This document shows positions 5,945 through 59,789 of a stretch of DNA of 64,000 nt, piece after piece. The position numbers and the translations under genes are program-made. The notes under the pieces were generated by a model. It was not told the DNA's origin and did not search any database. It saw nothing but the letters and a program-made list of their open reading frames with translations. The first letter of the stretch is position 1; every line of letters begins with the position of its first letter. The DNA is from Urechis unicinctus. Its lineage: Eukaryota; Annelida; Polychaeta; Xenopneusta; Urechidae. The stretch spans positions 31,337,750-31,401,749 of the forward strand of contig CM067353.1 of the NCBI GenBank assembly GCA_034190875.2. Direction: 5' to 3'.

Positions 5945-8897
5945 ATGATAAAAACATACGTTTGCCCAGCTGTTTCAATTTGGACGAATAAATGAGGACT
6001 GTGGGAATCAATCATTATGTTCCGACAAAGAACTTACAGTAACAGCCACAATAAATCTGTCTTTATGAGCGCTCCGTGGCCTATACGACCCCAGCGTCAC
6101 AAATGTCGCTTGACGCATCTAATAACGACGATTTCACTGCTATAGAAAGCTGCCTTTATATTAAGTTAATTGTGTAGCTAATGACAAAAAAGTCTGCAAA
6201 AAGGTATGATGCATCTGTTAGGGTAGTGCAGAATATATATGGCGTTGCTTCTGGTTGCAAAGGAGCGATAACAGCTGACGTGCTTCTTGGATGTGTTACT
6301 TGCTCTTTCGTCGTTATAGTCAATAATTCTAAGAGTCTGTCTATTGGAAACCGTTGTTTGTCACCAACAGGGTTGGTTAAATGTCACGGCTTGCAAGGTT
6401 ATTTAGCTGCAATGACCACGATACACCGTCAACAATATTGCATAATACATTAACATTTAGTTTAGGCGTGCTTTGTAAGCTAATTTTCTTGCTGCTACAG
6501 AGCCCTTTTTATTGTGGTTTTTGTTAGGTTTTATTAGCCAGCGTAATGTACGCTGGTTATGTAAGTAATAGATCGGGATCAGTCCAGATAGAACCGTCTC
6601 CACTGATATCGATAAGACATCTATGCTCAATACAGATGCTAATTGTACACTAAACATTAGAAAGTAGACCACCGCAATACACATCATATTGCATCGGTAC
6701 ATTAACAAGTAGCACGTTTCGCGGCAGAGTTCATTATCTGCAAGGCATCACAAATTGCTGCGTTTTCTTTTATCCTCTGTTCAGCATAATTTTTAACCAG
6801 ACCAAGGGTGCGAGACCACGCGCGTTCTTTTAGTTAATTCATGTTGTATGCGATATCTCACTCCATGTTGATCGTCGGTTCTTTCTCGGTTAATGTAAGA
6901 TATACGATAATTATCCAGATTAGGACGGCGTGATAGGTACATTGAAAGGTTTATTTGCAAATTTTACGTTGGGTTAAGAAACTCCTGATGGCCCTAATTG
7001 CAAATTAACTTTAAAGCCTACCATCACGTCGGCAGCATTTAAAGAAACTGCTTCGCTATAAGAAATATATATTATCTGCCCTTACATTATGATCCGGGTT
7101 TGTTTGCTATAGAAATTATCACATCTAGCACAATGACGACTACAAGGATTTTCTTCACTGTATAAGGGGGATTGCAACACATATTACCGTTTCTGGTCGG
7201 GATTTACAAAAATGAGTATTTCCGAATGGCAACTGTCGCTAGTTATACATCTTCTGGTTATATTACCGACACCAGTGGCTCCTGTGATGCAATGGCAGCG
7301 ATGAACAATACCTTTAACGACAAAGCTTTATAAGTTGCACATTTTTGATTGACACGAATATAATATGTCTTGTACAACTATGTGAAATAAGTCAACCTAT
7401 AAGGAAACGCTCTAATGTGCTGCAGTACTAATGGAAACCATCTCACCGAGAGTTATAAGTTAAATGATTTAGTTTGTATATAGCGCAGCATTAAATTGTT
7501 GAATAACCCATTTGACACAATAGTTTGATCATTTCAAGATTCTCCGATTCAATCTTACAAATCGCGCTTCAATATTCAATTACCCTGCAATAATTCTATA
7601 CCTCTATCATGATGTTATATTTTTTATGTTGGAAAACATTGGTTTGATTCGAGAGTAATATGCAATGGAAAACCACTTTGGCGACACCCTAATTCTGTTT
7701 AGTGTCAATACATTCCAGTTTTGTTATTATGTGATATCTATGATTAGAGGCGTCATATCATTTGCCAATCACAGAGACCAGCATTGCGTTTATACCTGCA
7801 TGCATACACGCTATTTTATTGCATCGGCACGCTACACAGCCACGCAATCGACGAGTACCTGTTACAGAATAAAGCTAGAGTTATGACGTCGGATGTGCAG
7901 TAGCAGCTTGAGTTGCAGGAGTAGGTAGTTTACGACGCTGGCAGAATTATACCGTACCAACTACCTGTAACGATTGGCTCATTTAATTCATCGTGGTTAT
8001 TGTGGATTTTTGAAAAGCATAACACTTTCCTAAAAAGGTTTGTCAGTGATGCACAGTGTCAATACAGATAGCGGCATAACGAACCACGGATTACAATGCA
8101 GGTTAATGGCGGAGTTATTTTTATTGATCCAGTGTGTTTTTAAACATAAGCAGTTGGGCCTTGATGATACCATGCCATATTATAACCCACCCGCGGTTAT
8201 CAGTAAAGATTACAGCGGGATCACACGTGTTTTGACTATATCGGCAATACGCCTCCAACCAACATATTGCATGGTCTCGCCAACCACGAAATATATTCGA
8301 TCCTTATGCCCTTTATCTAGTGGCACTTGATTATTGGCTTATTGGATTTGATATAATGGATACAATATTACGAAACATTTGATGGAAATGCACTGCATGT
8401 TCCATGATTGCTACTAATTGCTATTTGGGGGATATTCAGAAAGCCTCTAACAAAGCAGGTAGTTGTATTGGCCAAACTGCATGTCAGTCTGACAGCCAAG
8501 TACAATGCTTGAATAAGGGTTTGCAGGGAATTATTTCCCACTCATTTGAAGTTCAAAAGACCCGTGGCCTTGAATACATCAACATGTTGAGGCTCATTTT
8601 GCTGCGCTATATTGCTAAGGCCATCTATAAAGGCGCTCTGAAGAAGGTAATTTAGGTAGCGTTTGGCTAAGGAAGAGGGCGCTCCTCGCAATGACGCACA
8701 ACGCACATAACGTTCACATAGCACATGTTATACACCCCCCCCCCACCTGTGACATCAAGGTCCTCTTTTCAGAAGATGCTAAAAATAAACGTAGCCTCAT
8801 GCAAGCTAATAAAACGAGCAAGTGTGTTCCATCATCGCTGTCAGAAGCGATGTTGACCCGATAACCGATGGGACTATATAGATCATAGATCAGAGGT

Positions 8898-9021
<124 letters not shown>

Positions 9022-9058
9022 AGCATATAGGATATATATAATACATGGTCCCTAATCC

Positions 9059-9347
9059 ATTAGCCAGATCATGTGGGAGATCCTAGATGCAGACACAGTT
9101 TCTCCCTAATACATAACGTTCAGCCAGATCATGTTATATATATATATATATATATATATATCGCATATGATGCAGACACATATATATGTATATATCCCTC
9201 ATATATATATATGTGTCACTAGTCTGCAACATATATATATATATAGCATAGAGGAGAACACATGACTAATACATTAGCCAGATCATGTTGGCGATCGCAT
9301 ATGATGCAGACACAGTTCTCCCTCATTTGTGTCACTAGTCTGCAACA
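9059..9347. repeat. Three broken copies of a ~75-110 bp unit interleaved with TA tracts
   Basis: A unit containing AGCCAGATCATGT, GATGCAGACACA and CTCCCTMAT occurs at about 9059-9110, 9121-9230 and 9272-9347. TA runs have been inserted within or between the units. Copies two and three also share GTGTCACTAGTCTGCAAC. Copy B has this unit once, at about 46,743-46,825. The triplication and the TA growth therefore look specific to copy A. Confidence 0.8.
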
Positions 9348-10207
9348 CTGACTCGCTGTCGATGATTTCATAACATTAGGTCATAGTTTGACCGGTTAAA
9401 CCAACAATTTAGTTGTTGAATATTGCCAAAGAAATATATGCATTGACAACATTTCTGCGCCAGCTTAATAATTACGGTACGCGTTAGCAAGCAGAGCTTT
9501 ATTGACCGCGTTCATTTTGCCAAAGCATGAGCCACTGAAACAAAAAGATAAACTGCCTGACAGGCCAGCAATATTACCGCTGAACGCATTATGTGGACCA
9601 TTCAAGCTCTCTATGCAAAATTCATGTGAAGGTTTGGCAATCAGAAAGTTCATCTTTTATGTAAGAATGACTGCTCGCACATGATACCACGTTTTTATTT
9701 GGCTTGTGTGTACCTCATTGTGAACAACAACAACCAGCGCACAGAAAGAAAGGCACTTTTGAAACACAGATGTCAGCAAGTAGCACTTAAACGTAGCAGA
9801 TATAAAAAGTTCATATTGAAAACAGCTTTTCTGTTGGAGCCTGTATGCAAATTGCCATATTCTCGCAATCAGCAAAACTTTATAACAGAAAAAAAAATAT
9901 GGGCTGGTAGATGCCGCAACATATTTCTGCAGAGAAAATTGAAGCATTCCCGAAGCGGAAATATATAATCACTGTTTTCAAGGGTAGCTTTTGTAGCGAT
10001 GTGGAATAATTGCGTGTGGCTTCTCCCATCTCAAATTTATATTATAGTCGAACGTTCAAATTGTTTGGAAGTGGCATGTCCTTGGTTATCTACCCTTTGC
10101 ACATGCCTAAAATAAGGCTGACAGCGCATATTTCACCTGCGTTTCACGGTCCGTATTCGATATTTTTTTCCCAATTACCAGTTCTCAAGCAGTATCTAAC
10201 GGGTAAC

Positions 10208-10305: not shown

Positions 10306-11591
10306 CATTCCGAACGCAGATCGGACGCCGCTTGTCCAGCGTCATATAATGATGTGCCTTGTGATGCCCCTAGTGTTTCTAACGTAAAGCATGAGGTTTC
10401 CTGGAGCGAAATGACGGGCTTGACATGGTTTCCTCTGCGCACGACAAAGGCTTCCCCCTCCTGCATCGTATATACAAACGTTTTTATAAACTTCTACTAT
10501 GGCATAATAGGCCACATTAAGAAATCATTGCGCTTAATATCCCTGGTAATTACATAATTAATTATACGCTTAATATCATGGTATGATGAATGAGGTCTAA
10601 ACAGAGCATAATTAAACGTTTGAAAAACCAAAACGAGTCGTATGACTATTGAGTTGCGGCATCATTCATGTCATATAAACTTCTATAGAACGGCAGATAA
10701 GCATTTAGCATATGAAAGCAACAAGGCGAGCCGCAACCTTAACCGGTAAGGCTCTTAACGTTCAACGCGTGCAGAATCCAAACAGATAGCAAAACAGGTC
10801 AAAGTTTTAGCTCCATTAAATTATCCACGAGTGTTTGAGTGTAGAAAAGAGCTAGAAAAGATCCCATTCGCTTTATCATTTGCTTATTTGTGCTGGCATT
10901 GTGGATACAGTGGCAAAGGGTATATGATAGCCGTTCTGCACTAATCGCATATAACATATGCGCACACAACGCACAAACTATAAAGCAAAGCTTAGAAGGA
11001 GTGGTAAGCAAGGAACATTACGAGGCATTGTTATTGTATAACGTTTACAGCTAACAGCGTCCACTACAATTGATTTATAGCATCTCTCATATTTTGTGAC
11101 AATTTCTGTAGCAATATGAGCCGCAATTACCAGTAGCATTCATATATCCCCATATCAATCTAAAGCGAGATCCTATATGTGATATTTAAGGCATCCTGTA
11201 GGTTATAAACCAGTCTCGTGAAGCTTGCTAGCTCGTCAATGTACCTTCCTAGACGTTGACCTGTGTAATACGGACATGATATGCAATACAGATTGTACGT
11301 AAGGTAGACGAGACACCCACATGGAGATTCGATATGTGGTCTATATCTTGCGCTGAAGCTCGCGCCTCAGTGAGAAGTATTACAACTAATACAAACATCA
11401 GACACCTGATAACAGTGACAATTCCGTTAGTCGCCAGGATCTTCCAACAAGCAAAGCAAATTCACAAGCCGACACTGTTGGGCAAATTATAGATTAGTAA
11501 AAAGCACAATGCTCTTCGCGGATCATATCCTAGATAAGATATGACGGCCCCTTTTATGAATATGCAAAGCTATTCACCTACTGTTGCAAAA

Positions 11592-11592
<1 letters not shown>

Positions 11593-11632
<40 letters not shown>

Positions 11633-11726
11633 TATATATATATATATATAGAGATAGAGATATATAGATATATAGATATATATATATATATAGGGATATA
11701 TATATGATATATATATATATATAAAC

Positions 11727-11764
<38 letters not shown>

Positions 11765-11943
11765 GTACTTATACATATATATATACATATATGTATATAT
11801 ATATACGTATATATATATATATATATTTACATATATACATATATATATTTATATTCATGTATAGAAATATATATTTATATTTATATTTATATATAAATAT
11901 ATACATATGTATATATTTATATATATATATATATTATTTATAT

Positions 11944-12005
<62 letters not shown>
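11593..12005. repeat. Compound (TA)n microsatellite, ~410 bp
   Basis: About 410 bp of almost pure A/T, mainly TATATA with GAGA, TATTTA and ACATATA interruptions. The tyrosine- and isoleucine-rich open frames over it are artefacts of the repeat. It lies in the A-only segment, so copy B offers no comparison. Confidence 0.97.
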
Positions 12006-22000: not shown

Positions 22001-22227
22001 TTACAATTCCAGGATTCAAGTACAGATAATGGAAGGGGATAGCTTATCACTATTAAGGTGGCACTCACCTCGAAAGTTAATTCGTCTTGCGACAATATAC
22101 TAATGAAGTCATCGCAAATGGTTTAATTATTATCAAGTCAGTGTTGCGACAACTATACTCGAATAGTGACTAGTTTATGACCGACATATCCCAGGTAAAT
22201 GGTTTTATGACGGAGGTTTGACCTTAA

Positions 22228-22247
22228 AGATGCATTTTTTCAAAAAA
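22228..22247 (+). repeat. Left terminal inverted repeat of the TTAA element
   Basis: The left end, AGATGCATTTTTTCAAAAAA, lies immediately after the TTAA at 22,224-22,227. It pairs with the right end, differing by A/G at position 3 and by one T. Confidence 0.85.
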
Positions 22248-22446
22248 AATGACATGTGTTGCTCCATTTAATAGAAAAACTCTTTTGGAACCCATATAAA
22301 CCATTTTGCGGACTAGTTCAACGCTATATCGTCGATTACACCGTATCGAAATCTGCCGGCCACACCCATGTTTACAAACATGAGCACATGTCGATGGGAA
22401 AATGACGCATGCGTATTGAAGGGTCTTTGTTGACAACACATAGTCG

Positions 22447-22454
22447 TGACGTCA
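22447..22454 (+). promoter_or_regulatory. TGACGTCA (CRE) upstream of the element's plus-strand gene
   Basis: A perfect TGACGTCA octamer lies 35 bp before the proposed ATG at 22,489, in a locally CpG-rich stretch (about 22,440-22,475). CREB/ATF sites at this spacing are common in TATA-less animal promoters. The position next to a start codon and splice donor supports promoter use, but no expression evidence is available. Confidence 0.5.
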
Positions 22455-22934
22455 CGCGCATCGCAGATTCGACAGAAGGTGGAAACGCATGCAGCCGAAA
22501 TGGTGAGTGTTTTGATTCCTACATTTCTCTTCTTTGTTCTTCTTTGATTGGAGTTTTCGAATGTTATATATAAAAAGAACCCGCCTCAATAAAGTGAACA
22601 CTATCGGTACAATAGATTACCATAAATTTAACAACAGATAGCGTTACACCTGCGAACGAACCCTGAGGTAGCCCTTAGACTTAGTATATTATATTTATAC
22701 TGAGGCTGCGCATATTCAAGCGTAATAAAAACGATATTCTTGACTAGTCTTTCACGTTTTTGAGTGTAAAGCCATGACACTTGTTCGAAGTGTGATTATT
22801 TCATATGCAATTATCGGTGCTTTTTCATAGCAAACTATTGGAATATTCCTGAATGAACTCATAAATTGTAATATAAATCAAGGGACTGGGGTCTCCCTCA
22901 GGACGTCTACCTTATCTGGTTATAGTGAACTGAA

Positions 22935-23025
22935 ACAGGGATTTGAATTGGCTGGCCAGTCGCTATCTTCTATGCATACATAAACCCTACAGAGAAGATA
23001 GCGGCCAGCCAATGCAAATCCCTGT
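22935..23025. repeat. Foldback (imperfect inverted repeat) in intron 1 of the element gene
   Basis: The arms 22,935-22,971 and 22,993-23,025 are reverse complements (ACAGGGATTTG..., then GGCTGGCC, then GCTATCTTCT). They have one mismatch and a 4-nt insertion (AGTC) in the left arm, with a loop of about 21 nt. It could be a nested small foldback element, or a structured RNA segment in the intron. Confidence 0.85.
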
Positions 23026-23977
23026 GTACTGAAACGTCCACGCTAGGAGTTTGGGGTGGTATGTATCATCGTATGGGTTTGGCTGACTTTTGTAGGCTTT
23101 TGGCTCAAACACTGTAACATTATTGATGAATTATTCTTGTCATGTTCATTCATTGATTAAATTGAACCAACCCACTTTCAAATTTAAAGGAAATCAAAAC
23201 GCCAAGGAGGGGATCACAGACAAGAAGAGGCAGTGGAAGGGGTCATTGTACAGATTCTGACAACCTGTGTGGAACTGAGGTTGGTTCCTTTTTTATTTGA
23301 TTCTTATCAAGGGCATTTTATTGAACTCAATACACCCATTATAACTAGGAAGGATGTGTTTAATGATTTGAAATTGTTCACCATGACACAGGTGTCAAAG
23401 TTGGTGGAGGTTGCAGACAAACCTGAAGAGGTGGCAGAGGAGCCCCACCTTCTTCAAACAAGGTACTTTTGGGCCTGCCTTACCTAATTGAATCACTTTG
23501 TCAGTAAATAGGTCCAATGTTGAACTATCGAACCATAAATTTCCATTGGTTCTCATTTGTTTGTAGACCTCGACAGGCCGAAAGCGAGTCAATCTTGTTC
23601 GCAGAGGCTACCTTTGCAACACACCAATAACTAACCAGACCCTACAGCAGAGTAGAGTGACTGCTAAATCTTTAGAGCTGTCACAGAAGGAGAAATTGAA
23701 GGTATTGTACAACTCAGCATTTAGCACTCTTCAGCTGCTCCAAAAACCTTCATGCAATTTTGGTCACAGAGAGAGATTTGTATTGCAGATATTCAATCCA
23801 TCAAAATGTAGACTTTTGATTACTCATATTTTCAGAATTTAGTGCGGTGGCTGGATTTGGATGGGGTGGGTCAGTTGCTGGTTAGAAAGACAGCCACAGT
23901 TTGCGCTTACAATCACCCGACAACCCACACCGCCGAAAGAAGGATTCCACCCCCATCCATCAACTACCACTTCCCCA

Positions 23978-24298
23978 GACTGTTGCATCTGCCTTCACTG
24001 TAGGGAAATGCCTCCCCCTGTGGAGTGGCAATGTTGCACTAACAGCCCAGACTTTTGCACATATGCACTACCTCAGATGGAAGGAGTTGTGCTTGACCCG
24101 ATGGTCATTGAGGTTATTAACAGGTACCGGGTGGACTTGCTATGGGATGCGGTTGTCGAGGACAAAAAAAAAGATGCTTAGTCACGACGCCTATCAGCAA
24201 TTGGTTCTGTGGATTCATGTATTTTTGGAGGAGTGCAACAGGAGGGTAACTCCGGTTGTGTAAGGAAGATCAGAGACCTCTTCCTTAACAAGTATTGA
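23978..24298 (+). other. P2X7-like intracellular (cysteine-rich) domain region
   Basis: The region opens with C-x-C-x2-C and, 11 residues later, a CC pair (CICLHCREMPPPVEWQCC, about 23,984-24,037). It continues through a segment reading MEGVVLDPMVIEVINRYRVD, then an AYQQLVLWIHVFL segment, and closes with CVRKIRDLF. In human P2X7 the corresponding parts are the cysteine cluster, the LVLSRHVL...Y stretch, the AYR...TW motif and the terminal SCCRWRIRKEF motif. The order and spacing agree. The frames used are 2, then 0, then 2 (coordinate modulo 3), so at least two indels interrupt it. Similar domains without channel parts are common in invertebrate repeat-associated proteins. Confidence 0.8.
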
Positions 24299-24743
24299 CA
24301 GTATTCAGGCTTAATACAAAATAGGTTTTGGTAATATACTAAGTCTAAATGTTTTAATTTTTAATTTTAATCCATAAATATCACATTGTTCTGATTGGTA
24401 TTTTTGTGTGGATTATAAATTGCTTAGTCTTACAAAACATGTGGTATTATTTGTTGTGAACATTTTTGCTTCAACAATCTGATAACTTATTGTCTATTTG
24501 TTTTATGGAATGAACATTCATATATTAGTAAATGTTTTGTCTCTCAAACACAGAAGAAAAGAATTATGCACACATTATTTTGTCAATTAGTCATGACACT
24601 TATCTTCAGATTTGACTTTTTGTTCATAATTCTAGCCCTGATAAAAATAGAAGTGACATTAAAATGAGTTCATGTATTATTTATTTGCCAATTACATGTG
24701 TTCTTCTATTACAGTTTGGATTTACAGACAAAAGAATGTGACT

Positions 24744-24749
24744 AATAAA
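24744..24749 (+). terminator. Possible polyadenylation signal of the P2X7-like gene
   Basis: AATAAA lies about 445 bp after the stop codon, in a very AT-rich segment where this hexamer is expected often by chance. It sits between the two convergent genes. Weak evidence. Confidence 0.25.
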
Positions 24750-24795
24750 TTATTGTACATTTCAACAAAAACAAATTTCCAAATCATATTTTTAA

Positions 24796-25669
24796 TCAAA
24801 ATGAGACTCCTGCAACTGTTTCTTGGGTAGATGGCCTGGCACAGGAGCAATGTTCAAACTGATTTTGCCGGGTCATCAGCAGAGCGTTGTGGGTGTTGTT
24901 GTGATTGCTATCGCATTGCTTGGGCCTAAAGATTTCTGTCATCATATCTGGTATATGGACATAAGTCTTGACCTCTAAACCGATGACCACGTCTTTGACT
25001 GCTTGTTGAAGCGATTGCTGTACCTGTAACACAACAAATGGCATTATATGGCAAATAGCTAGAACACATTACATGTGCAGCATCAGTATTGTGTTTTCTG
25101 ATAGGACATTTAGTCAGTGTGTAGTTGAGTGTCATGAGAGACTTACATTGGCTGACCAACCCTACTTGAGTGCATATGTCCTATCCCTATACCTGTTGTG
25201 GTCTATTGTCACAACTTGACTGCAGGCAAGGTATAATGAACACCTGATCGCCAGCCATTGAATTAGGGTCAAGAGGATGCAATAATTTCTCTACCTGAAA
25301 TTTACAAATTAAGTAAGGTACCTGGTATGTTTGCAACAACAATCTACAAATCTAAATGGTGCAATGAACTCACAATAGGCCCTTAGATTTTATTTAATCG
25401 GTGACATTTACACAAGTCGATTCAATACAGACCGATTCGATAGCAGGGTATTCATCTGTTCATAATACAACGAGATTACTTACATGTCCAGCAACAACTT
25501 TGCAGCTTCTTCGTTGGTCACACTCCTCACTTCCCTGAATGCCTATCTTAAGACACCCTCGTGTTAGACCGCAGCTGGTCTAGCTCCCGCTTCCTTCTCT
25601 TAGTTGTAGAATCTATTAACAGCTTCTTTTCTCTCCACCTTTTCTTCGTTTCTTGGTTTGATCGTCCAT
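24796..25669 (-). pseudogene. Convergent degraded minus-strand gene, possible transposase remnant
   Basis: A terminal exon (25,023 down to 24,796, stop TGA) is preceded by a consensus GTAAGT...ACAG intron (25,146-25,024). The upstream exon is 25,294-25,147. In the phase that joins them, the text contains TIDHNRYRDRTYALK, then a TAG stop at 25,164-25,162. After the junction comes VKDVV, followed by EVKTYVHIPDMMTEIF. The DHN-to-YIPDLM layout is what I associate with C-terminal parts of invertebrate Kolobok-like proteins, but this is a memory-based resemblance. Further upstream lie a K/R-rich frame (about 25,665-25,560), an ATG at 25,669 and another GTAAGT donor near 25,485. The exon chain between them is unresolved. 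At least one in-frame stop shows decay. Confidence 0.35.
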
Positions 25670-25924
25670 TATCGCAATGAAAATAGCGCAAACTAAACAC
25701 CCGCCGGCGGCAATCGGCACAGAGTGATGACGTTTCTGCGCTTCCGGAATTAATAATACATGAGCTTCCAAATATGGTCTATTCTTGGCTGGAAGTGAAA
25801 AATAAGGAATTGAAGGTTTATTTACGAACAACAAGAAATATATACGGCAATTCCAACTTTGGAATCCGGATATCAGCACCATTTAGGGTACTCTTGGAAT
25901 TAGCAACTTTTTTTTTCGATTCGA

Positions 25925-25945
25925 TTTTTTGAAAAAAATGCACCT
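25925..25945 (-). repeat. Right terminal inverted repeat of the TTAA element
   Basis: Read on the minus strand the end is AGGTGCATTTTTTTCAAAAA, immediately inside the TTAA at 25,946-25,949. It matches the left end at 22,228. Confidence 0.85.
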
Positions 25946-25949
25946 TTAA

Positions 25950-47690: not shown

Positions 47691-50600
47691 ATAACAAAGG
47701 TGGATCGGACGCCGCTTGTCAATCGTCATTTAATGATGTGCCATGTGATGCCCCTAGTGTTTCTAACGTAAAACATGAGGTTTCCTGGAGCGGAATGACG
47801 GGCCTGACATAGTTATCTTCTGGTTCCCCTGAGCGCACACGAATAAGCAGGTGTAGTTTTTGCACATAGATATTATGTCAGGCGGAGCGTGAATGACTCG
47901 GAAACAACTGACCCTCTCATCATTCCTGCATCTGTTATGTCTATGTGATATGGGGTGACAATATATCACCCACAAAAATGTAGCGGGTTTCACAAATCAC
48001 TGTGATCTGCGGCTTGAATCATTATCCGATGATTGTAATAAAAAGCTTAGCGAACCCGCATACAGTGTGCGTGAAATCATATTAGTGCATTTTCGGATGT
48101 CTTACTTTGGAAAGGTTGAAACGTTGACAACTTCTATCTACTTAGCTTAAAAGAATGCTTACATTTGCATAATATTCGCCGGGAAGCGTCAGAATAGCTG
48201 CGCAAATAATGCATCCTTTTTTTTACTACCGTACCAAACATAAGTATTCAAAATAACTGATATAAAAGCTGACTAATATTTACGAATTATGTAACTCCAT
48301 ATGTACCGGCCCTTGTTAGTCAAACTAGTACGGTTTCCCTCCAAACTTTATGGTGAATAGTTGGATTGATATTCACGATATCTGTTCGACATTCGGTGTC
48401 ATTTAAAATACCTTCTTGAATGATTAATGGTGTACGTATGCTACAGCATTAAAAAGATCATATACTTATGGAGCTTACAAACTGTAACACAAACGCCTGC
48501 CATAATATAGTTATATAGCAATCGACACTATTTATATGGCTCATTTGGTGTTGTATCCAAATTTCCGAGGTGTTCGTTGAACAATGCGTTTCATACACAA
48601 ATTTTAATTCGTGCAGTAAGTGGCATCCGTCTTTGTAAAAGTTTCGATGACCGTTGAAGTACATTGAGTCAAGGGTTAACTAACTGTGTTAATAAAAATG
48701 TTCGATATGTTGATTAGACACAATCTGCGTGACTCGTACATTACTACCTAAAATTTACTACGGCGCAGATAAACATGATCCTGCAGATGAGAGCAAAGCT
48801 GCGTAGATAGATCATAACACGACATCGTGATCTCTGTGTTGAGACTCCAACCGCACTACCAATCAATATGTATCATTGACATTTGTTGTCGCTGGGATCA
48901 AGCAATAACAACTGTTAATATTGCACAGCACGCACTTGCATGGTCTGTAATTTCTAGCAATTTCATCAGCAATGCTAATATCTGATGGTCTTTATGCCTA
49001 ACTTTCTATACCTATGGCGGAGGGGTTAATGGTTTGCTAGCTCAGTATCCAAACGACTTATAGTAAGGGACCCAGTATGAAGAGCTTAATCGCCTAAAAG
49101 TAGGGCTGAATACCTTGCCAGCCAATTTAATACTTTTTGTGCAGAAACTTGGCATTAGCTATACTAGAGATCGTACGAATTGTGAGAGCTGGGAATATCG
49201 CAATACTTCGTCAGGAAACATGTGATTTAAATACGACATTTGGTCATTATTCGATACATTTGGCTAAAATCGTATTCTCCTGATATCATATCTTCGATAA
49301 TTATATTTATAAACATTTCGTCATGTGCAATATGAAAGAACACAACAAGTCACTGTAATATACGCCTCAGGTGCACACAAGAAATCAATTTAACATTCCG
49401 CAATGTCTGTGGGACAAAATACATAGAATGCAACATGTTCATGGTTACAGAGGCACCACAAGGAATGAATCTGCGAAAATTCGAAGGAATAGCACAATTT
49501 GCTATTAAGTGCTTCGCATGAGCGCCTAAACTTCATCACTATAGCTTAAGGTCATGTGACAAAGTTGCTACAAATGGCTACATTTGTCAACAGGATACAG
49601 TAATGATGCGCGCGCAACGATATCCACAAGCCTAAATTCAGGCAAATTAATATATTTTCCCAAAGAGAAATCGCAGCACCACAGGTTTACTATACATGTT
49701 TTAGTGCAGATGCAATACTTATTCCGGCATCTAGCAGTGGCGTAGAGCAAATGGTCAATTTTAAAGGCGCATGGCCATTAGGGATTGACAAATATCTGCT
49801 AAGCCTTTGCATAGGCTAGATCGCACTTTACACAGATAATGGAAGGGCATAGCTTATCACTATTAAGTTGGCAATTACCTCAAAAGTTAATTCGTCTTGC
49901 GACAATATACTAATGAAGTCATCGCTTTTAATGGTTCATCGGAAGTCAATTATCAATCCAGTGTTGCCATGGCGACACCCTGTTTCCCAGTTCGGAGCCT
50001 TCACAGTCGTTACTCACATTTATGACCGACTTTACCCATGTAAATAAAAAAACTGCACCTCTTCACAATGATATCAGTGTGACATTTAGGAATTAGGCAA
50101 TGCTATTTATCCCATGATTATTGTCAGTCTGAAACGCTTTGTATGAATGTAGATTTTGCTGACCAGGGGCATTGTTCTAATCTATTGTCATCGTCCGATT
50201 ATTGCTAAATTTTATGCGAAGGCTAGCGCAGCACAGTATTTGCAACGTACATTAACACTCCCGTGATCACAAAAGCACAGCGGGCCTTTATTGTGAGAGA
50301 GCTTGTAGAGACATTGCTTCTGGCCTCCGTTTGTTCATCGGCGTGTTTGAGACAAGGCGTTCTATCTGATCTCATAATGGCCTGGTCTCAAGTTTTCAGA
50401 CAATTTGGAGTTGCCGTAATTGCATGTCAATTTAATGCTCATTTTGAAAATACACTGATTAAAGTAACTTATCTGCGCCACACAATGTCCGCAACTCACG
50501 GATGTCTGCGCAAACATCCAAGGAAAGCGCAATCTTTTGCAGATAAGCACAGTTGCACAGTATACAAGGAAACATACAATAAATTTTACCATTTATGGAA

Positions 50601-54992: not shown

Positions 54993-57589
54993 ATTGATCA
55001 TGATTAGCCTTGTACGGGTTGAACACTGCAACACCAAAGAAGCACTAGAGTCAATCTTGCTCGTGGATGCACCAGGGAAACATTAAAATTACTTCTAATC
55101 AACCGGAGATTTGGAAATGACATCAATGTCCTTATTGAATGATCAATATTTCAAATGTTACGACTGGGATGACCCATTAAACATAAATGGTACTACGTTT
55201 TTTTGCAGATTTGGATAACCGTAGTGGTAAGATGTAAGACGCAAAGTGATTCGATTGAATTCGTAGACGAGTGCAGATAGATATATGCACGCAAAATATT
55301 TGAAATTGTCATAAGGTGGGGGGTGGTGGAGTGTTTTTCCAAATTCAAATGAAATGACAAGATCGATAGCCTGGCATTATAATGATGAATGCGTGAGTTT
55401 CTTTGAAAAAAGAGACAGCATAGTTCAATAGCGGGGCCATAACGGCTACTATCGGAGGCTTAAGTGCACAGTAATGGCAATAGTACCAGTTATAGTTCGA
55501 CCACTTCTGATGAAGTTACGCAAGCGATTTATGTATGCGTTATTTGCTTGGATTTCACTGAGTGGACGAGTTTTAAGAGCATTGTTTGTAGCATAGTTGC
55601 ATACCATCAACTGCATCAACACCTCAACAGCTGCTTCGAATACAGTGCACTGTTGATGTGGTGTGCTGCAGAAATTGCTTGTGCCGTCAATCGTTCCATG
55701 AAGCTAAGCCACTCAGTCCTATGCCGGGCCACGAATACTTGACATTGATGGCTTGCACTATATCAGAAGGCATCACATCGATTGCAATTTACGTCAATGC
55801 TTATTATCTGCATACAACCGAAAGACCAGTTCAGCTTCAGAAAGTGCAGCCATTCGTCCTGGCATCATGGCTTTCCTTCACCTTGAGATATGAGACACAA
55901 CGGTAGACACCCACCACGGGGAGCACAATGATCTAAGCAGCAGGGCACGACAGCCGCAGGAGAGCAAACGATGGGTGCAGAGAGACAGCAATAGTATCAA
56001 CAAATCGTATTCGCCATTGTGGCATGTCACCGATGATTCGAAGCAAATTATAACGTTGACTACATCTAACTGGCAGGATTTTGCATATCTTAGCAAATTA
56101 AATGTGTCCAGTTGAACAAAATTGCCCTGAACTTATAGTATGATAATTCATCAGTAAGAATACTAACATGCTGCTAGTCACCACCTGCACTGGTTTAAGT
56201 GAAGATGCTCTCCTCGTAATTGTAACATTGGTGGAAAACGCGACCTTAAGGAAAGTTATACCTCATGCGACGTCTTTGACAACATGGATTTTCTATGTCA
56301 ACCTACCGCACATCACACGAATTCGCGTTCGAGTGATCTTCACTTATTACGCAACTGATCGAGGTGTTTTATAAGTGGTTGCCATGACAAAGTATTGAAG
56401 TGTTATTAATAAGAGCAACAATACCTTTAGTCCTCTCACAAGTTGTAACTATCGAAAATATCCTGATATCGCATAGCTTTATGTCAGCCAATCGTCGGTA
56501 GAACATGACCCCTTAGTATGACATCACACACATCACAATACACAGACGCAGTGGGCCCACCAGAGGCGCATATGATGTCGCTATAACATTGAAGCATAAG
56601 TATGGACGAATTACCAGCAAAGGCATTTATGAATAGATGTTGAGTGCAATAATAGTTGTGTTCTAGTGTCTCCTGCCATAACCACCGAGTGAGTGTGTCA
56701 CATGCATCAACGTCAGCTGAACGAGGTGCTTGTTATTTCATATACTGATAAGCTTATTTGCGCAAATCAGTTCAACATAGAACGGTTTTTTAAAATGTTT
56801 TCTCAAAGTGGATACATTTGGCATGTGGTCGCTTTAAACACGTCCGACCGAAAATCAATCTGCATTGTCAGAACACGCTTACCTTGCAGTTTGAAGAATG
56901 ACCCCATTTGATCTCCAATGATACTAGCGAATCGTGGTAAGGATGGTTCTACGTTCAAATGAAAAAATATATATCGCAACATCCAATGATGCATTAATGT
57001 TCTATGCTACATGGGTGCAACTGCAGTCGTAATTGTAGCATTAGGATACTGTTAATCCAATGGCGATATACTCAAGTAAATGCTGAAAAGTGGTCTCTTT
57101 CAATCACTGCTGCTATCCATACTTTAAATATTCTGCATGGTTAAGCAAAAAATATTGCGCACCAGACGATAACCTATGGTGTTTCACTGTGGCAAGCAAC
57201 CTATGTAAATTTTTCCAGTTCAGGTATGTCTTACCATTATTCGTCGACAGTCCAAACTTTGGCTTATTTCAATGCTGTAAATCTTTCACTTGATTGAATG
57301 CCTCGCAAAAATGTAACCGAATGCAACCGAAATTTTATCTAGCTATCTCACAATTACCATGACTGCTGCGATTTGGCTACTACGATTAAGCTGCATGACA
57401 CCAAAGACAAACATTATATCCGCAGAATGAAAGCCGTCAACAGCTAAACGATACACTGATAAGATATGATACTGCTCATTACAGTCATTCACTCTACCCT
57501 CTGTGTTGTACTCGTTCATGTACCAAATATTGACCTGTGTAATGTCATGGAAAAACTTCCTCTTTAATTAAATTTTATGAATGCTTTCA

Positions 57590-57850
57590 GACAATCCTTT
57601 TGCCCTGGAAGCTTCTCAAAGGTGCGTACTGTGTGTTCAAGAGATGAATACTGTGGCGTAGGTGATGCACGAGCGTACGTGTCTGCTGTTACTTCCCAAC
57701 CTCCCGCAACGGAGCCTTACTCAGTTGCAAGGTCGGTCTCATTATATCATTGATTGCAAGTAGGCACGGAGGCAATTCATTAGCACACGTCTCCTTTATT
57801 TACGGGGACAAAATCCAGGAAATCGTTTCCGTTTCGGTTTCGGTTTCATA
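57590..57850 (+). repeat. Diverged dispersed repeat, copy 1
   Basis: It aligns by eye with 59,790-60,040. Shared landmarks in order are CCTTTTGCCCTGGAAG / CCCTTTGACCTTGAAG, TACGTGT / TACGTGT, CCTTACTCAGTTGCAAGG / CTTTACTTGGCTGCAAGG, a 16-base identity ending GGTCGGTCTCA, GAGGCAATTCATTAG / GAAGCAATTAGTTAA, and AAATCGTTTCCG / AAACCGTTCCGG. Both copies lie in B-only insertions. Confidence 0.75.
57825..57848 (+). repeat. Hexamer repeat GTTTCG, four units
   Basis: Four consecutive hexamers (GTTTCC, GTTTCG, GTTTCG, GTTTCA) occur inside dispersed repeat copy 1. Copy 2 has no array here. Confidence 0.9.
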
Positions 57851-59789
57851 GAGATCAGTAAATGTGAGTGTTAACTGTAGTGTAGGGCATACAAGCCTAT
57901 GCACGAGGAACCGTAAATTGCATTATATTAATTGATGTTTATTTCCCAATAACTATATAACATTAGCGTCAAGTCACATACGCTGGACTGGTTAGGCTGG
58001 ATCAAACATTGCCGCAGTAGTGTTCGCCGCTAAATATCGCTATTCAACGATTGAGTAGATTTGTCCATAACCGGCCGGTTATGTGGCTTGATATAGCTTC
58101 GTTAGAAAGCTTGCTCTAGATTAAAATAATTACAAAGTTTTGAATGTGGTGCATTCCGTCACCGAGGTAGGGTGGTCTATGAACAAGTTATCTAATCTGA
58201 TTGCACTCAAGTGGATGTTGGTGATCCACATCATTTTATGTGCAAACCATGAGAACTGTACCTTGATTTTCATACAGTGTCTGTGTCATAGGCGCGAAAT
58301 ATATATTAGAATAGCCATTACTATGCACTTAAAGGTATCGATACATAAACTGGCACTAGCGCTATGCGCACGAATGAACAAAAACATGACGCAGTTGAAT
58401 GTCATGGTCTTATATATGGTTGTACGCATCCACTAGCTGGCGTTGCTATGGTGATAATGGGGTATAGCATTTTGCTCGTATATCATGGACGACGGGATAA
58501 ATAGTGACAAAGGGTTGCTCATCATGCTTGCAGCTTTGTCGCTGGGTAATGGGTCGTCTTGCAGCGTTAAAGTTATTTTCCCTTGAGATGCCCTGGCAAA
58601 GAAGGCGGTTTGCGAATATAATGGAAAGATAAGTGCCTTAATTTGAGTATCAGGGTAAAGCATTCTGGGAAGTACAAATGGCCTCAAATATTCATCACCT
58701 TTAGGCTCATGATATCTGAGAAATGGGCCAAATTTATCCATTTTTACAAATAACCTTTGAATGGCAAATAGCCAATCGAGTGGTATCTTGCCAGTGCAAT
58801 CTAGCACGACTTGTTCAGAGCGCTAATGGCCATTAGAAAGGCAATCACAGTTCTTCAGATCTGATATTTTTGTCACTACAAAATATTTTTGCATAGCCGT
58901 GCCACGGATAGCTTGGCACATGTTTTCAGTAATTCATTCATCACCATTATGTACAATGCAACGCATGAACGTGGGTTTTCCTTCTAAGTATTCTGACGTA
59001 CATTCTATGGGTCAGTTGCACGAACAAGCTGCGACTATTTTTGGTAGATCACTTGCTAAGGCTAAAACGTAAACTTACCCCAGGATATCGACTGCCTCAC
59101 TGTCACTAATTTTGCAGCACCAACATATGTTTTGGTTAAGGACACCCTTGCATATGTACGTCATCTTGGGGAAATATAAAAATCTTAAAGTGATTTCCCA
59201 CACGCATGTTAGTACCATGCTGTAGTGATTGCGTCACTGGATACATTCAATACAATTAATGTGCAATGCCTTCTGCTGGTCGCATTCTGTATCCGCATGA
59301 TTGATCATGGAAATGTTTCAACCTTTAACATTTGTCGCATAGCACTCTTATATTAGCTTCATTCAAGAGGCAGTCACGATTGTAAGCTGTTCTGTGCACT
59401 GAGTGTTGACAGTCACTGGAGAAAAGGAGAGATACTTCGATTGTGTTTGTACATTGTGCGGTTGCGGTTGAATCATTAAACAATCTACATATGCAATAAC
59501 ATATTCCATAGAAGATTGGTACTACAACTTATTTTCAAAATGATTGTAACCTTCTAGCAATATATCTTAGAAAATATGTTTGAGACCTCAAAACAGATTC
59601 AGGACACGCCTACAGCGGAATTGTGTGTTTGAGTGGAATCACTTGTCATTGTTCAACACACTCGTCTGGCTCTCATACATGTATTTGATGCTTTATTGTC
59701 ATTACAATGTAGAAATAAACCTCCCCTGTAATTGTCGCATTCGATTTACACAACCAAAATAGATGTCCGTGTCATCAGTGACACCGATG

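Follow-up and report, generated by a model that had tools for sequence, protein, structure and literature searches.

The question raised by this locus is why an insertion bounded by TTAA should carry the cysteine-rich intracellular domain of an ion channel, the P2X7 receptor, with no part of the channel itself. The window (i.e. the whole stretch of 64,000 nucleotides that was analysed) comprises positions 31337750-31401749 of contig C12, in a genome of 1.19 Gb assembled in 926 contigs. The insertion is very probably a non-autonomous Kolobok transposon with internal deletions, of the kind that bears KolX (Kol0), spread by transposase acting in trans.

The element lies at 22228-25945 and is thus 3718 bp in length, with TTAA on either side and imperfect inverted ends. 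The left end (AGATGCATTTTTTCAAAAAAA) and the opposite strand of the right end (AGGTGCATTTTTTTCAAAAAA) are identical at 18 of 21 positions, the highest match among the 16,075 pairs of TTAA sites spaced by 200-8000 bp in the window. The runner-up, with 17 of 21, is found at 55460-58332 (GTGCACAGTAATGGC...), and might be a chance match or another element. The boundary features are the following.

22224-22227, unstranded: left TTAA target-site duplication; among the 14 other high-copy left-end loci fetched, 12 have TTAA and two have ATCA
22228-22248, plus strand: left inverted end, starting with AG
22228-25945, unstranded: putative non-autonomous Kolobok element, 3718 bp
25925-25945, minus strand: right inverted end, finishing with CT
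25946-25949, unstranded: right TTAA target-site duplication; TTAA is present in all 15 high-copy right-end loci fetched, including that of the window
50085-50088, unstranded: empty target site (TTTA) in duplicate copy B

One region is present twice in the window, in diverged form (5507-33675 and 41982-62632, with aligned pieces 69-88% identical), and several inserts are confined to one of the two copies. Copy B has no insert at the position of the element, with a single, diverged site, TTTA, at 50085-50088. The flanks of the element align well to copy B outward from 22147 and from 25954. The 75 bp immediately to the left of the element align poorly; short matches fix the exact base of the join in copy B, which is thus less certain than the absence of the insert. 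The element had originally been defined by its TTAA flanks, its inverted ends and the empty site in copy B, and that definition stands. Within the element there is a 23-nt inverted repeat (22935-22957 and 23003-23025, 96% complementary) that is present in 14 of 15 left-end loci, including the window. Elsewhere in the window 8819-9081 and 11515-11959 are long blocks of short-unit repeats that also match each other in inverted orientation. The window contains no Rfam match at the gathering score and no tRNA.

The genes of the element are present as remnants, on both strands.

22500-22502, plus strand: ATG that closes exon 1, immediately before a GTGAGT donor, and is probably the start codon of KolX; placed by sequence inspection
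23190-23279, plus strand: KolX exon 2 remnant, basic and RG-rich, from alignment with L024, L028, L030 and L032; presumed limits at AG and GT
23392-23462, plus strand: KolX exon 3 remnant, from alignment with L024, L028 and L030; presumed limits
23567-23701, plus strand: KolX exon 4 remnant, from alignment with L024, L028, L030 and L032; presumed limits
23836-24313, plus strand: remnant of the last KolX exon, which encodes the P2RX7_C (ballast) domain in a broken frame, from Pfam, tblastn and the deletions
24907-25019, minus strand: last (C-terminal) transposase exon remnant, from tblastn with the C-terminal exon of L024 (E 6e-6)
25483-25669, minus strand: first transposase exon remnant (MDDQTKKRRK...), matched in tblastn by the L024 exon (three pieces, E 3e-12)

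The plus-strand gene had been predicted to end in the P2X7 intracellular domain without the channel part, and this was upheld by a profile search once stops were read as X. With the plus-strand frame taken over the whole element in this way, Pfam PF20478 (P2RX7_C) is matched at 23948-24313 with 24.8 bits (cut-off 23.5 bits; E 2.3e-5), covering positions 70-191 of the 192 in the profile. The open frame by itself gives 21.8 bits (E 2e-4), under the same cut-off. The last exon remnant is matched by the KolX protein of L024 with E 7e-31 in tblastn. The open KolX exon of L024 scores 106 bits to P2RX7_C, and its KolX matches P2X7 in the PDB with E 4.2e-18. When the broken domain of the window was compared with the PDB using phmmer P2X7 was absent from the matches, while open relatives did match it. 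Ballast cysteines 1-6 are invariant in six aligned relatives (three of which belong to one family), with a later cysteine lost in L029, and the window frame retains the first six. Amongst the GDP-site residues of P2X7 named by Rump 2020 (PMC7016195, in the part consulted), R546, H547 and R578 are kept in L024 while R574 and K583 are not, as judged by eye from an alignment with P2X7.

In the sections of Kojima and Bao 2022 used here (PMC9587614), Kol0 Kolobok transposons are stated to encode a protein, KolX, that shares homology with the ballast domain of P2X7 (similarity to its region 476-595), and this link is described for Kolobok in diverse animals. The same sections distinguish Kolobok from piggyBac by 5'-RR/YY-3' termini, and describe a C/DxxH motif between the second D and the last E of the Kolobok DDE transposase. 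The window element has the TTAA target-site duplication and termini AG...CT, i.e. of the 5'-RR...YY-3' type. KolX with its ballast domain is a remnant here, and the domain exon is open in relatives, in which there is also a putative DDE-type transposase. In these respects the element resembles Kol0 Kolobok as described in PMC9587614; it differs in that the window family has no transposase core and in that the KolX frame is broken in every copy aligned over the lesions. KolobokP shares TTAA and RR/YY ends, but according to those sections it has terminal direct repeats of ~450 or 660 bp and a His-Me nuclease, and KolX is assigned to Kol0 and not to KolobokP. The longest direct repeat found around the window element is 23 nt. 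The homologous zinc-cysteine domain also occurs in P2X7 and in Nanor (Rump 2020, PMC7016195, in part), whereas the KolX element has no channel part. The link between the domain and Kolobok is thus already published, and the window element would be a further Kolobok of this known kind.

Only the outer parts of the transposase gene are left in the window element. The transposase core was not found there by tblastn at E 1e-3. The original prediction overlooked the broken state of KolX and the loss of most of the transposase. L028, L025 and L027 have transposase exons on the other strand from KolX, with the two D blocks, GDGRMDSPG/GDGRSDSPG and VTDQHPQ/VTDAHPQ, recognised by eye. The motif DIWH in L028 and DVWH in L025, also seen by eye, fits the C/DxxH signature given in the sections of PMC9587614 used. 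The C-terminal transposase exon of L024 is matched by that of L025 with E 9e-11. Pfam returned only Mutator-like transposase and Stereocilin for the transposase exons of L025 and L027, both under the cut-off, and nothing for those of L028. L028 is the nearest locus with a core, having 74-80% DNA identity to the window element; it has a right end with TTAA, and a matching left end with TTAA was not found there. L030 has TTAA on the left, TTTG on the right and no core. No fetched locus of the window element lineage has both complete ends and a transposase core. Next to the L024 element the right end is present once more, in inverted orientation (9076-9709).

A genome search with the transposase core gave 32 rows from the best 150 of 320 candidates scored, some of which are fragments of the same copy. 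Ten of the 32 lie within 10 kb of a scored P2RX7_C row (the best 150 of 2591 candidates being used for the neighbour counts), and all ten are on the opposite strand, convergent and 1.3-2.1 kb apart. The other 22 have no neighbour within 10 kb among the 150 scored of the 2591 P2RX7_C candidates. Four of these were examined: L051 has a 33-residue piece of KolX, L057 a broken KolX and L059 a 50-residue piece with 48% identity, and KolX was not seen in 4.1 kb of the flank of L058.

Searches of the genome with the right end, the left end and the KolX exon gave 678, 704 and 658 first-look candidates respectively, and the best 40 of each were scored, giving 40, 41 and 40 rows. All 40 right-end rows (from the best 40 of 678) are full length with 97-100% identity. 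In the left-end rows (from the best 40 of 704) 40 of 41 are full length with 95-100% identity, and one is partial with 94%; the 40 KolX exon rows (from the best 40 of 658) all have 98-100%. The 1.19-Gb genome contains 118 exact matches to the 32-base left end of the family (TTAA plus 28 bp) and none to its reversed control; the left end of the window has an extra A in an A-run and falls outside these 118. The ends therefore recur in the genome, and the similar numbers of candidates for the exon and the two ends do not bear out absence of the gene from other copies. Among the loci fetched (including the window), TTAA accompanies all 15 right ends and 13 of the 15 left ends; the other two left ends have ATCA, and the flanks differ between loci. 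Both ends could be paired in 12 elements among the rows listed, including the window; ten of the 12 span 3680-3733 bp, and the remaining two 2817 and 4506 bp. Over 25100-25945 the window is 97.3-99.9% identical (mean 98.3%) to 13 other fetched right-end copies, a fourteenth having been dropped at extraction, and BLAST identity over longer pieces with gaps counted is 93-99%. Judged from these sequences, the family is young and recently multiplied; the copies compared are the best-scored ones, a choice that favours young copies. At 46490445-46513611 of contig C15 there are five KolX-exon matches in the same orientation with a spacing of ~5.7 kb, which suggests a tandem array of a unit holding the window element.

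The lesions in KolX are common to the copies. A deletion of 4 bp is present in the window and in 13 of 13 other high-copy members aligned (L017 and L028 being left out for insufficient coverage), and is absent from L007, L024, L030 and L032. A deletion of 8 bp (larger in L037) is present in the window and in 12 of 12 others aligned (L035, L040, L042 and L030 being left out for the same reason), and is absent from L024, L028 and L032. In addition, the exon 3 remnant contains a stop, seen by eye, in the frame that corresponds to that of the relatives. Its frame-shifting deletions make the KolX of the window a pseudogene. The deletions are common to the aligned copies, and therefore the lesions predate the spread of these copies. 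The view that the domain is the transposon's own gene holds in part: as a transposon module it is supported by the relatives and by the sections of PMC9587614 used, while as a working gene it fails on the pseudogene and its common deletions.

We propose the following origin for the element. In the ancestor a plus-strand KolX gene, with the ballast domain at its end, would have faced a convergent minus-strand gene for a DDE transposase. The derivative would have lost the transposase core while keeping remnants of the outer exons, and its KolX would have been broken by frame-shifting deletions. Kolobok transposase made elsewhere would then recognise the ends, excise the element and insert it at TTAA, and its action on the ends would account for the spread to hundreds of candidate places. 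A family with broken KolX has multiplied recently, a point absent from the sections of PMC9587614 used here, so KolX made in cis is probably dispensable for movement. The function of KolX might accordingly be examined with marked elements.

Other origins can be considered for an element of this kind. The presence of TTAA, together with a remark published in PMC9587614 (in the sections used), would be compatible with a piggyBac element carrying a KolX-like gene. The evidence disfavours this, and it is very unlikely: the ends are AG...CT, following the RR/YY rule for Kolobok in that source, and in relatives the transposase that accompanies KolX shows GDGRxDSPG blocks and a DxWH motif when inspected by eye. 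Moreover, piggyBac versions of the domain are without most of the conserved cysteines according to the same sections, whereas here the first six are invariant in six relatives and visible in the window. The pseudogene state of the window copy would suit an origin of KolX as a host gene, picked up by chance and carried along in a single element. We consider this very unlikely, and the least probable of the alternatives, given that L025 and L027, of a TTAA family with different ends, carry an open KolX domain exon with their own transposase, and that published work connects KolX with Kolobok in diverse animals (PMC9587614, sections used).

The relationship between receptor and transposon could in principle run either way, and the homology itself (E 4.2e-18 between L024 KolX and P2X7) has no direction. 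In the proposal of PMC9587614, as given in the sections used, P2X7 originated when a P2X4-like gene became fused to KolX, the domain coming from a Kolobok. The original prediction had suggested that the receptor borrowed the domain; this agrees with the published proposal, and as a new idea it is pre-empted by it. Acquisition of the domain by the transposon from a P2X7-type receptor is highly improbable. According to Rump 2020 (PMC7016195, in the part consulted), the ballast domain is found in sponges and cnidarians and outside vertebrates is unjoined to the P2X channel, and bony fish and tetrapods have typical P2X7, while agnathans and sharks lack it. In the present genome, for which the P2X channel matches and those to KolX point to an animal, the 15 rows for P2X channel exons all fall on contig C15, where 11 scored ballast rows are also located; the two sets are separated by 4.3 Mb or more. 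There is therefore no sign of a P2X7-like fusion among the best 150 of 2591 ballast candidates, which were the ones scored. With that coverage, the separation is in line with the published fusion history. The 1.19-Gb genome thus confirms the P2X7 ballast domain as an accessory gene of Kolobok transposons, with P2X channel exons standing apart from the scored ballast domains.

A second family is present as well. In L025, L027 and L029 the KolX domain exon is open, and TTAA is found with ends that start with AGAG. Two of these loci, L025 and L027, are 6.77-6.80 kb in length, with the transposase (GDGRSDSPG, VTDAHPQ) on the strand opposite to KolX. These loci also carry KolX, and thus KolX belongs to more than one Kolobok family here. 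For the KolX domain exon dN/dS is 0.23-0.37 in the six pairs among L024, L028, L030 and L032, which from the sequences suggests constraint on KolX where its frame is open; the pairs of L025, L027 and L029 give 0.26, 0.47 and 1.04, with few changes. L024 and L032 have an open KolX domain exon, and no transposase core was found in them. That KolX might be under selection separately from the transposase is a speculative idea, to which we give rather little weight. Were KolX to serve the element that encodes it, elements with KolX alone would form a distinct class, and the window family, its KolX being dead, would parasitise both proteins. L025 (3583-3900) and L027 (5936-6553) have a cysteine-rich exon (YCRCKGQCVRRCPCKKNGTNCSTRCFC...) upstream of the open KolX domain exon. 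It has no Pfam match up to E 0.1, and presumably resembles a CXC-type zinc domain.
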